Source: Flavobacterium crassostreae (GTDB lineage: Bacteria > Bacteroidota > Bacteroidia > Flavobacteriales > Flavobacteriaceae). Taken from it: a stretch of DNA of 64,000 nucleotides. The notes below the pieces were generated by a model, which was given only the letters and a program-made list of their open reading frames with translations, had not been told where the DNA came from and did no database searches. Location: positions 62,001-126,000 of the forward strand of contig NZ_CP017688.1 in the NCBI RefSeq assembly GCF_001831475.1, written 5' to 3'. Below are positions 39,953 through 42,591 of this stretch, in pieces. How positions within the stretch are numbered: position 1 is the stretch's first letter; every line of letters begins with the position of its first letter. The position numbers were made by a program, and so were the translations under genes.

Positions 39953-40204
39953 TGCTCTATTTTTCTCGGACAAAAGTAGAAGTTTTTTTTAAATATTGGG
40001 CTTTTCAGAATTTTAAAAATATTTTTGACCTTAAGAACCGCCTTTAAAAACCCTTCCAGAAAACAATATATGCGATCTGCTGTATGATGGTTGGCAAATA
40101 GTTGACTGAAATTATCTCTGAAAATACATGCTTTACGGAATCCCGTAAAACACAAACGAATAATACAATTACCTTTACCCTTGTAAAAACAAATTTTATT
40201 AAAA

Positions 40205-41425
40205 ATGGCAGAAGAATTAACACAAAATCCAAAAAAATCTAAAACCGAGAATGACAAGCTAAATTTCAATCAATATGGTTTCAGGTCAGCAAGTAAAGTA
40301 TTGTCAAATTCAGACTCTTTGGAAGGGTTTTTAGATAATGTTTATGATAGTTTTTTAAACGAGCAAAAAATTGATGAGCAAGGTTTAAAAGACAGAATTT
40401 CAAAACTTAAAGCAGAAGTGCAGCAAGAGAAAGTCAGTAAAAATGATTCTATTTCGGAAATATCTTCATGCAAAAGACAAAAAGAGGATAAAGAAAAAGA
40501 AATAGAAGAATTAGAAATAGAAAAAATTGAAATTAAAAACGAAGGAGGAGAAACTTCAGATACAATGCCATTTGTTATAGGTGCATTCATTACATTATTA
40601 TTAACAATGTATCTTTTTGTTTTTTATTCCTCTTCTGGATACTCTGCTTTTTACGGAATTAAACAAGGAAGTTTAGGTTTTATAAACCCAAATGTTTTTT
40701 CAGACGCAATGAATCGAGGTGGAGGTGTTATTGCTCTTATCGTACTTTTTCCAGTTATATTTTTAGGATTAGGCTTTTTAATTCACGATTCATTAGAAAC
40801 AAATAAAAAACTTGTTTCAGAAAAAAAACCAAAAACATTTTTAGTAATTATAACTTTACTTTTTATAACATTAATTGCTGATATGTTCATTGGTTATAAA
40901 ATATCACAAGGAGTTCATACAAATGAATTTAATGCTGGTTTAACTGATAAAATATGGGAATTCTCTATGATATTTTCAGATATAAATTTTTATTTAGTTA
41001 TAGTTTTAGGTTTTGTAGTTTATGTTATTTGGGGCTTTTTATTAAATTATGTACTAAGTCATCCTTATTTAAAAACTGAAAATGAACGAATAAAATTAAT
41101 AATTGAAAATTTAAATATTAAGATTAATGAAAAAAGAAATGAATTAACCAATATAATTTCAAAAATTCAGAAAAAAGAAGGAGATGTCGAAAGTTCAGAA
41201 AGCAAAATATTAGAAAAAGAAAATGATATTATTGGTTATCAAAATGGCGTTATTCCTGTCAATATTCCACTATTAAAAGCATCTGTTGGAGAATTTATGG
41301 GAGGTTGGGAAAACTTCACTAATGGACATTATGGCAATAATATTGGCAATTTATTATTAGAAGCAAACAAAGAAAAAGAGAATTGGTTACAAAACAAATT
41401 GATAAATTTAAAGTTCGATAATTAG
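40205..41425 (+). CDS. Unknown coiled-coil membrane protein with four TM helices
   Basis: I do not recognise this 406-residue protein. It has a charged N-terminus, a coiled-coil region rich in Lys/Glu (about 56-112), four transmembrane helices (about 121-141, 173-194, 210-231 and 262-284), a second coiled coil (about 288-345) and a short C-terminal domain with VGEFMGGWENFTNGHYG. Such an arrangement could form a membrane scaffold or channel with cytoplasmic coiled coils. The DNA is visibly richer in A+T than the flanking topA and miaB genes. The gene ends exactly where the next gene starts, so the two are an operon. Confidence 0.75.
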   Translation: MAEELTQNPKKSKTENDKLNFNQYGFRSASKVLSNSDSLEGFLDNVYDSFLNEQKIDEQGLKDRISKLKAEVQQEKVSKNDSISEISSCKRQKEDKEKEIEELEIEKIEIKNEGGETSDTMPFVIGAFITLLLTMYLFVFYSSSGYSAFYGIKQGSLGFINPNVFSDAMNRGGGVIALIVLFPVIFLGLGFLIHDSLETNKKLVSEKKPKTFLVIITLLFITLIADMFIGYKISQGVHTNEFNAGLTDKIWEFSMIFSDINFYLVIVLGFVVYVIWGFLLNYVLSHPYLKTENERIKLIIENLNIKINEKRNELTNIISKIQKKEGDVESSESKILEKENDIIGYQNGVIPVNIPLLKASVGEFMGGWENFTNGHYGNNIGNLLLEANKEKENWLQNKLINLKFDN

Positions 41426-42508
41426 ATGACAGAATTACAAAAAAGAAAAAAGAAAACAAAAGAAAAAAAGCCAATTTACATTCTTTTAGGATTTATTATA
41501 TTTTTCGGTTTATTTATTTACGGAATTACAAGGCCATCTGAACAAAGTAAGGCGATTAAAGAACTAACGACAAGTTTCAATAAAAAAGATGTTGAAATGG
41601 TTTGGTATAAATATAAATCTGAACTTTATCAAGATGATGAATTCTTGTTAGAAGTAAGAAAAAAACTTTCTACATTTAACTTATCAGAAAGTGAAATTAA
41701 AGATTGTATTAGCTGGCTTCCGCCAGCTAATACAAATCTTAATTTAATTGTTATCCCAGATTTATCTCGTAGAATTACTGATACAATAAATAATCCGAAT
41801 CAGATTAATAATGATATTTTATTATTAAAGACTATTTGGGAATCGTTTGTTTCTAATTCAAAACTTAAACAAGATACGAAAGATAGATTAATAATTGATG
41901 TTACAGACATTGACGCAGCAAAAGGACAGTTTGGAAAAGTTGCAAACAACTTACAATTTGATTTGTCAAATCACAAAGGAAAAAGTAATAGATTATTTTT
42001 CACAAACGAGAAGAATAATACTTTTGAAAAAAACATAATTGAAATGTATGCATTAGCCAAACAAAAACCTCTTGGAGCAGACTATAGGTTTTATTTAAGA
42101 CGTTATTTGGAAAATAACCTAAAAAAATCAACGCTTTTTGATAATTATAAAAACAAAGTAATAATAATAACCGATGGATATTTAGAGGCCGAAAATAAAC
42201 CTTCTGACACTAAAATTTATGGATTTCAAAAACAATTATACAATGCAGTAACAATTGGAAATATTTCACAAGTAATAACAAATAACAATTTAAATATTCC
42301 AAAAGTTAATATTGACTTATCAAATACAGAATTTTTTGTATGTGAAGTGAACGAAAGAAAAACAGGAAAAACTTTTGACTTTGAAATATTAAAAGCATAC
42401 TGGGAAGACTGGTTTAAGAGAATGGACGCAAAAAAAATAGAATTTTATCCAAGAGAAAAAGCAAATGACATATCTATTAAAAGAGTAAGTGAGTTTATAG
42501 CAAACTAA
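41426..42508 (+). CDS. Membrane-anchored VWA-like protein of unknown function
   Basis: A 360-residue protein with one transmembrane helix (about residues 16-34) and a soluble part outside or inside the membrane. LNLIVIPDLSRRIT (about 105-118) and KVIIITDGYLEAE (about 244-256) look like the first and fourth strands of a von Willebrand factor A fold, with DLSRR in place of the MIDAS DxSxS and TDG as the downstream Asp; the site may be weakened. The middle region carries long helices. The start is the nucleotide after the upstream stop. I cannot name a family. A 13-bp inverted repeat lies within the coding sequence at 41705-41734. Confidence 0.7.
   Translation: MTELQKRKKKTKEKKPIYILLGFIIFFGLFIYGITRPSEQSKAIKELTTSFNKKDVEMVWYKYKSELYQDDEFLLEVRKKLSTFNLSESEIKDCISWLPPANTNLNLIVIPDLSRRITDTINNPNQINNDILLLKTIWESFVSNSKLKQDTKDRLIIDVTDIDAAKGQFGKVANNLQFDLSNHKGKSNRLFFTNEKNNTFEKNIIEMYALAKQKPLGADYRFYLRRYLENNLKKSTLFDNYKNKVIIITDGYLEAENKPSDTKIYGFQKQLYNAVTIGNISQVITNNNLNIPKVNIDLSNTEFFVCEVNERKTGKTFDFEILKAYWEDWFKRMDAKKIEFYPREKANDISIKRVSEFIAN
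41705..41734 (+). repeat. Perfect 13-bp inverted repeat inside the VWA-like gene
   Basis: TGTATTAGCTGGC (41705-41717) and GCCAGCTAATACA (41722-41734) are perfectly complementary with a TTCC loop. It encodes CISWLPPANT and so is part of the reading frame. It would form a very stable mRNA hairpin, unexpected in AT-rich coding DNA. Confidence 0.85.
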
Positions 42509-42591
42509 AAGATAGTAAAACCAAGATAACAGCACAATACCTACGGCCCGAAATTGCTCCATACAAAAGTAAAACAATGTTAAATCTCAGG

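Follow-up and report, generated by a model that had tools for sequence, protein, structure and literature searches.

A horizontally acquired gene pair for a coiled-coil membrane protein and a VWA-like protein in Flavobacterium crassostreae, a possible effector module of a two-component regulon

Introduction

Two abutting genes of Flavobacterium crassostreae, here called gene 1 and gene 2, encode a coiled-coil membrane protein and a protein with a predicted von Willebrand factor A (VWA) domain. They lie in a window of 64,000 nucleotides (contig NZ_CP017688.1 of assembly GCF_001831475.1, positions 62,001 to 126,000, forward strand), and positions below are those of the window; loci and genomes used for comparison carry L and G numbers. 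In our reading, to which we give a probability of roughly 0.45, the pair was acquired horizontally and serves as an effector module in a two-component regulon whose role is partly immune. The closest known counterparts are Ter-type VWA/TerB systems, anti-phage systems containing TerB and, in Riemerella, the regulation of CRISPR genes by a two-component system.

Ter-dependent systems with TerB and a TerY-type VWA protein were reportedly described by Anantharaman, Iyer and Aravind in 2012. They are cited in the accessible parts of PMC11090510 and PMC10250203. The pair resembles them in having TerB and VWA domains in one operon, at 17 of its 39 assembled loci, and in its mobile, patchy distribution. 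Unlike them, it has a VWA protein predicted to be membrane-anchored or a lipoprotein facing outwards, and a coiled-coil protein with four transmembrane (TM) helices as the constant partner. Neither TerC nor a kinase-phosphatase pair was noticed beside the cassette, although no exhaustive search was made, and the window's pair is without TerB.

TerB is part of the tested anti-phage system Shango (PMC10250203), Shango and Bunzi both being anti-phage systems with a TerB domain (PMC10250203; PMC10952713), and Dionysus is another TerB-encoding system (PMC12926258), as far as the accessible parts of these papers go. The pair is like Shango in the TerB domain, and SngA and SngB are found behind the same palindrome in L142, but Shango's helicase and ATPase subunits are absent from it, and neither gene matched the PADLOC models for SngA, SngB and SngC. 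The PADLOC scan, whose library may or may not include Bunzi models, likewise gave no match to Bunzi. Zorya has a membrane complex of ZorA and ZorB. The likeness here, only a proposal for the pair, is a complex in the envelope whose coiled coils reach an effector in the cytoplasm; neither gene matched ZorA or ZorB in PADLOC at E ≤ 10.

In Serratia, an Rcs-type regulon also controls CRISPR-Cas. The regulator described below matches RcsB by profile but, unlike in Rcs, stands beside a TPR kinase with a HATPase domain, has a 12-base palindromic operator with a fixed four-base spacer (N4), and belongs to a patchily distributed unit often found beside cargo. In Riemerella anatipestifer, deletion of RAYM_RS09735/09740 altered the expression of cas9, cas1 and cas2 and lowered that of a von Willebrand factor A gene more than 4-fold (PMC5399024). 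This is a two-component system of Flavobacteriia affecting cas genes and a VWA gene; however, it is of the PhoP/PhoR type, and the accessible part of that report describes no TPR kinase, palindrome or wider immune regulon (PMC5399024). A literature search, with subscription journals mostly outside its coverage, returned no description of the pair, nor of any immune regulon in Flavobacteriia built on a shared operator.

The gene pair and a regulon marked by a palindrome

The comparisons below suggest that the pair probably belongs to the regulon of a kinase and response regulator marked by TTACGG-N4-CCGTAA, a regulon that is well supported statistically. The features concerned are as follows.

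40132..40149: palindrome TTTACGG-AATC-CCGTAAA, proposed operator, with its 16-mer core at 40133-40148.
40205..41425, plus strand: gene 1, 406 amino acids (open reading frame (ORF), TM and charge count, structure model, alignments of homologues).
Gene 1 layout, plus strand: N-terminal coiled coil; TM helices at residues 123-141, 175-193, 212-230 and 262-280; C-terminal coiled coil.
41426..42508, plus strand: gene 2, 360 amino acids, with a TM anchor (residues 17-35), a helical linker and a VWA-fold domain (ORF, model, alignments).
41732..42505, plus strand: predicted VWA-fold domain of gene 2, residues 103-360.
40020..42570, ends approximate: acquired segment (both window flanks compared by BLAST with 29 relatives).

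The palindrome core ends 56 bp before the start codon of gene 1 and is the sole match in the window at 0 to 2 mismatches. A scan of spacers from N2 to N8, which preceded any fetching of sequences by the palindrome and covered the window and 0.97 Mb of loci fetched for other reasons, found the N4 spacing in 22 of 22 cases of TTACGG...CCGTAA; the shorter TACGG...CCGTA had a few other spacings too. The window's genome (3.03 Mb) holds three exact 16-mers and no exact copy of the reversed pattern. The palindrome was also considered as an intrinsic terminator, which was rejected: the flanks outside the core are T-rich on the 5' side and A-rich on the 3' side, and most sites precede start codons.

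The 39 loci of the pair comprise 27 from one reference-genome scan and 12 of 14 distant-relative regions fetched after genome searches (L087-L100, from which L093, on a contig shared with L034, and L100, without an ORF match, were dropped). At 12 of them a TPR histidine kinase (541-646 amino acids) and a response regulator (221-224 amino acids) lie upstream on the same strand, accompanied in 10 cases by an opposite-strand gene of about 290-380 amino acids. The kinase tested in Pfam matched TPR and, below the cut-off, HATPase; in two regulators tested, the receiver domain fell just below the cut-off. The best solved relative of the regulator profile is RcsB (E 1e-12, over the receiver and most of the DNA-binding part). 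The window's own genome has a regulator (E 6e-83, C1:1349734-1350399), 1.25 Mb from the pair, and the kinase and the opposite-strand gene adjoin it (L102). These three genes span 9732-13579 of L102 (about C1:1349731-1353578), beside apparent ribosomal protein genes, and no exact palindrome was found there. In L099, two kinase and two opposite-strand genes flank a single three-gene cassette, as if a regulator-plus-cargo unit were tandemly repeated. ORFs of 60-79 amino acids lie between the opposite-strand gene and the kinase in L105, L106, L113 and L115; their products have a signal-peptide-like start and a Gly/Pro/Thr-rich tail, and are candidates for a secreted signal or sensor peptide.

Across genomes, the regulator with its adjacent TPR kinase co-occurs with the palindrome and with the cassette. 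Among 395 genomes of the class, 18 have the regulator, 15 the cassette and 11 both (Fisher p 5e-14); outside the window's family the link gives p 1e-7. In eight of the 11 the two are 0.6-4.3 kb apart, in two they lie on other contigs, and in the window's genome the distance is that given above. The 18 regulator-positive genomes contain 38 palindromes against 50 in the 377 others (p 3e-16). When only those sites of the positives remote from regulator or cassette are counted, with four sites in G114 taken as zero, the figures are 18 and 50 (p 2e-6). Within the genus, 268 sites occur in 79 regulator-positive genomes and 32 in 71 negative ones (p 8e-20), at least one being present in 76 of the 79 and 22 of the 71, while the reversed-pattern control gave 9 and 7. 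Because this comparison is made within one genus, much phylogenetic confounding is removed. Four genomes scored as regulator-negative (G073, G472, G474 and G533) have three or four palindromes each; their regulator was perhaps missed or recently lost.

The sites are placed as operators might be. Of 66 examined, from a fetched set that leaves out 12 regulator-adjacent sites of the genus listing, 56 lie outside ORFs of at least 150 amino acids, where 25% would be expected (p 3e-24), and these intergenic sites have a start codon within 300 bp in 47 cases and within 80 bp in 18. The cassettes themselves were scanned over 1.5 kb upstream, a set of 41 that includes L103 and L106, fetched through the regulator; L024 had too little upstream sequence for one of the upstream scans. 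Seven of the 41 have an exact site, as against none of 500 windows drawn at random from regulator-positive genomes; when up to two mismatches are tolerated the figures are 16 of 41 and 14 of 500. A site of this wider kind is present at 13 of the 15 cassettes with a regulator in the fetched locus and at three of the 26 others (L011, L098 and the window). Against a less favourable background, 600-bp windows of the same loci, the contrast is 5/41 to 11/800 (p 6e-4).

Genes behind the palindrome

The second exact site of the window's genome lies 65 bp upstream of Cas9 (PADLOC 2e-64). The third precedes a gene for a lipoprotein-like protein of 117 amino acids, followed by one for a DNase-I-like protein of 285 amino acids that matches DNase I in the PDB (E 1e-9); a homologue with 63% identity lies near the regulator in L104, and another, by eye, in L107. 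Elsewhere the palindrome is followed by a CBASS SAVED-nuclease effector and cyclase (L135), by Shango SngA and SngB after a TerD-like gene (L142; TerD by eye), and by HamA and HamB-like genes with 24 to 37% identity to those of L016 (L148). Strong PADLOC matches among the 92 proteins behind 56 sites included GajA, GajB, HamB, E1-E2, PD-Lambda-5_B, an RmuC-type protein and a methyltransferase; the tally itself names no loci, and the GajA/GajB locus is by our reading L177. Five other downstream proteins scanned singly, the TerD-like one and those of L131, L129, L134 and L143, had no PADLOC match.

Counted as models at E ≤ 1e-30, PADLOC recognized 68 among the 92 downstream proteins and four (mad3, two SspH and mad8) among 89 control proteins encoded after 56 intergenic positions picked at random in 20 regions; the ten of 66 sites inside ORFs were left out. 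Since these models are redundant, and the contrasts by protein and by site are at best borderline, the immune share is offered as a qualitative argument, namely that complete and unrelated systems stand behind one operator.

Other genes behind sites were compared with solved structures: the protein of L182 matched mostly SMC ATPase ends and that of L172 a mitofusin-like GTPase, and the 1279-residue protein of L180 had no match by sequence. The palindrome sits in an equivalent position in L133, L149 and L179, flanked on one side by a prfA-like gene (by eye) and on the other by the gene of a secreted-looking protein of 181-186 amino acids. RmuC-like genes follow the palindrome in L136 and L177; the accessible part of PMC10952713 lists RmuC domains in phage-defence systems.

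Acquisition of the cassette

The preliminary description of this DNA, made from the letters alone, had held the two genes to be abutting between topA and miaB and AT-richer than their neighbours, and to have been acquired as a cassette. The ORFs confirm the arrangement; GC content is 0.264 in gene 1 and 0.262 in gene 2 against 0.365 in the window. Acquisition is borne out by a patchy distribution and an empty site. The two-gene form occurs in one of 25 genomes of the genus, the window's own, and a single-query search with gene 2 found it in two of 40 close relatives including its own genome, the other at 24% identity. Two gene 1 profiles detected the cassette in 14 and 15 of the 395 genomes of the class. 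The 15 include G202, retained on a 45-residue match; G320, with a distant PLD-fused relative (L106) that the profile search missed, was counted as negative. At the nearest empty site (L036, G062), homology breaks off near 40019 and returns near 42571, and about 143 bp are exchanged for about 2.55 kb. No terminal repeat was recognized at the ends of the segment.

In 23 of the 29 relatives with miaB fetched, topA lies 222 to 553 bp from miaB. Five of the other six have glycerol-type genes (by eye) in the interval and G014 has two other genes. None of the 29 carries the cassette there, six having no profile match and 23 no room for it, and the topA-miaB interval as a hotspot for the cassette was therefore rejected. 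The relatives with genes resembling those of glycerol catabolism (by eye) in this interval are L081, L082, L083, L085 and L086.

The two proteins and a proposed mechanism

The expected layout, coiled coils on either side of four TM helices in gene 1 and one TM helix in gene 2, was recovered by the TM and charge count and the models. The TM2-TM3 loop of gene 1 has five lysines or arginines, and TM1-TM2 and TM3-TM4 have two each; eight precede the sole TM helix of gene 2. By the positive-inside rule these counts place both ends of gene 1 in the cytoplasm and the VWA domain outside, a predicted topology. In 13 of 16 TerB-type loci a lipobox-like motif replaces the TM start of gene 2, which again places the VWA domain outside. 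Conservation of gene 1 peaks from TM1 through TM4, including both outside loops.

The VWA-like core postulated for gene 2 finds support in its structure model, which has a Rossmann-like VWA fold (mean predicted local distance difference test score, pLDDT, 85.9). The canonical metal ion-dependent adhesion site (MIDAS) is DxSxS...T...D as given in the accessible part of PMC11090510. This motif is altered in gene 2: D112-x-S114-x-R116 and D250-G251 are invariant in 25 of 25 aligned homologues, all with arginine at the third position; the threonine is not clear, with G217-A/S-D219 at what may be its place. Gene 2 had no Pfam match at E ≤ 10, hence none to a curated VWA profile, and a VWA match in its relative in L025 (E 0.018) fell below the cut-off. 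Searches of curated libraries with both proteins gave sub-threshold matches only, mostly to coiled coils, in agreement with the earlier remark that no named family came to mind. Against solved structures, the gene 2 profile had two matches only, both above E 0.1, and that of gene 1 matched mostly coiled-coil proteins, best 8qox_B (4e-5 over 64 positions). Thus the checks found no characterized family, a predicted VWA fold rather than none, and no presence at the same locus with the same composition in all relatives.

In the mechanism that we propose, the phosphorylated RcsB-like regulator would bind the palindrome, as their association suggests, and would switch on the pair, along with Cas9 and the lipoprotein and DNase-I-like nuclease. 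The charge pattern, anchors and lipoboxes point to a gene 1 product in the inner membrane, with cytoplasmic coiled coils and two conserved loops outside, and to an external VWA domain of gene 2 that may contact these loops. The complex might sense or block an envelope event such as phage DNA entry, the weakest step, and the signal would pass via gene 1 to a cytoplasmic partner, which in some relatives would be TerB or a fused PLD-like nuclease domain. Such an envelope complex, with VWA outside and coiled coils plus TerB or nuclease inside, directed against incoming DNA or a related envelope event, is doubtful as a whole.

Immunity and the alternative explanations

For action of the pair in defence, supported qualitatively, we would give even odds. 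The suggestion that it is stress or defence related holds in so far as the palindrome is common to the pair and to defence genes; the excess of defence genes behind the palindrome is not clearly significant. A bolder version of the immune reading is offered tentatively: in Flavobacteria and their relatives a mobile 'immune switch', made of the TPR kinase, the RcsB-like regulator and often the opposite-strand third gene, would activate many unrelated defence systems simultaneously through a single palindromic operator, and the VWA pair would be a new envelope-guarding defence family. Its targets would possibly be CRISPR-Cas9, CBASS, Gabija, Hachiman, TerD/Shango, the lipoprotein and DNase-I-like nuclease, and the VWA pair, each acquired system carrying the operator. 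If this is true, some defence systems of the phylum are plugged into a shared regulon by carrying an operator and are not switched singly. The operator would then be a search tag: in genomes with the regulator, operons preceded by TTACGG-N4-CCGTAA would be candidates for unknown defence genes; the signal sensed by the TPR kinase would become a testable question; and the VWA pair, so far two hypothetical proteins with some hundreds of homologues, would have its first functional lead.

Several results weigh against the effector-module reading. With one mismatch allowed, the window's genome has five sites against 13 for the reversed control, and genome counts were restricted to exact sites because one-mismatch sites are not enriched there. 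At 25 of the 41 cassettes, including all nine Bacteroidales-type loci, no site with up to two mismatches occurs in the 1.5 kb; none was found in any of L026-L034. No regulator lies within nine ORFs at 27 of the 39 loci (L088 has one 4.3 kb away), and inside the window's family the link between cassette and regulator reaches only p 0.07. Defence matches were made by 9 to 11 of the 92 proteins behind the palindrome and by 3 or 4 of the 89 control proteins (p 0.03 to 0.14), a range arising because 25 of the 68 families are listed, HamB is one split gene and PD-Lambda-5_B is maybe not a separate protein; if sites are counted, there are 4 to 6 with a match among the 56 palindromes and 2 or 3 among the 56 control positions (p 0.14 to 0.5). 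The structure model of gene 1 is poor, and gene 1 matched nothing in plasmid, phage and viral collections, so that no known vehicle emerged. By eye, the genes behind many sites do not look like defence genes (a prfA-like flank, lipoproteins, a metalloprotease, a D-Tyr-tRNA deacylase-like gene), and because of this the regulon, which is not purely immune, may amount to an envelope response of wider scope.

Such a response is the alternative that survives best, though we consider it rather unlikely: the regulon would answer envelope damage as Rcs does, the pair would repair or guard membrane or periplasm, and some defence operons would have been recruited because phages damage envelopes. RcsB as best solved relative of the regulator (E 1e-12), the predicted extracytoplasmic VWA domain, the many secreted-, lipoprotein- or metalloprotease-like genes downstream (by eye), the SNase and Excalibur proteins adjoining some cassettes, and a defence-gene excess that is not clearly significant as counted are all in its favour. 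However, the Cas9, CBASS, Gabija-type and Hachiman genes behind the palindrome have no known role in envelope repair, and the patchy, mobile distribution resembles that of conflict systems.

A Ter-type chemical or metal stress system, in which a complex of TerB, the membrane protein and the VWA protein would respond to metals and protect against oxyanions or oxidants, is improbable. Its combination of VWA and TerB recalls the Ter systems as cited in the accessible part of PMC11090510, Pfam TerB matched all four upstream proteins tested (three over the cut-off), and D112, S114 and D250 are kept in the altered MIDAS. Yet no TerB lies beside the window's pair, the TerB-like gene of its genome is 0.95 Mb away and off the palindrome places, and a TerD-like gene was seen only in L142 (by eye).

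More improbable still is a real link between palindrome and regulator with the pair carried along by chance or without effect on fitness, and its single site there by coincidence: an exact site at only seven of 41 cassettes and the five one-mismatch sites against 13 would fit, but exact sites are absent from all 500 random 1.5-kb windows of regulator-positive genomes, the window's own is one of three in its genome against no exact reversed copy and stands 56 bp before a start codon, and 18 of 56 intergenic sites elsewhere are within 80 bp of a start.

Homologues and neighbouring genes

Searches at E ≤ 1e-3 returned 289 homologues of gene 1 and 410 of gene 2; among the best 120 of each, all those with organism names are from Bacteroidota. 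The idea of a conserved two-gene unit is upheld, since gene 2 follows gene 1 at 36 of the 39 loci, which is 36 of 36 where the contig continues (L020, L021 and L034 end at or just past gene 1 and were excluded). The exceptions in structure are one intervening gene in L097 and split genes in L022 and L023. Fusions of gene 1 occur in L016, with a DUF6804-like part, in L098, with a PLD-like domain, and, by reading of the sequence, in L106, again with a PLD-like domain.

The TerB-group gene directly upstream of the pair in the 17 loci encodes about 130 amino acids, and its profile matches PG_1108 as well as a tellurite-resistance protein (COG3793) whose structure is known. In the topA-miaB interval of the window the plus strand has no additional ORF of at least 80 amino acids, hence no TerB subunit in its operon. 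A stand-alone TerB-like gene (E 2.9e-16) was seen in the same genome at C1:1048812-1049198 (L117, L125), at none of the five palindrome places found there.

Recurrent neighbours of the cassette are SNase, Excalibur and DUF4236-type genes (the last by eye). Defence genes beside the pair are occasional in a PADLOC tally of 123 neighbours, and because this tally has no background comparison, defence-gene adjacency was dropped as a main argument. A complete Hachiman system adjoins the pair at one locus, L016. Neither TerC or TerD nor a TerY-P kinase or phosphatase was among the 25 families listed of 140 Pfam families in these neighbours, a survey that was not an exhaustive search. ZorB matches, at best 6e-10, were found in two neighbours at other loci, where OmpA-domain proteins also occur.

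A scan of the locus for structured RNA gave one sub-threshold match, to GAIT (E 0.24). Inside gene 2, at 41694-41745, there is an inverted repeat of 24 nucleotides, 88% complementary with a loop of four nucleotides, possibly an internal hairpin.

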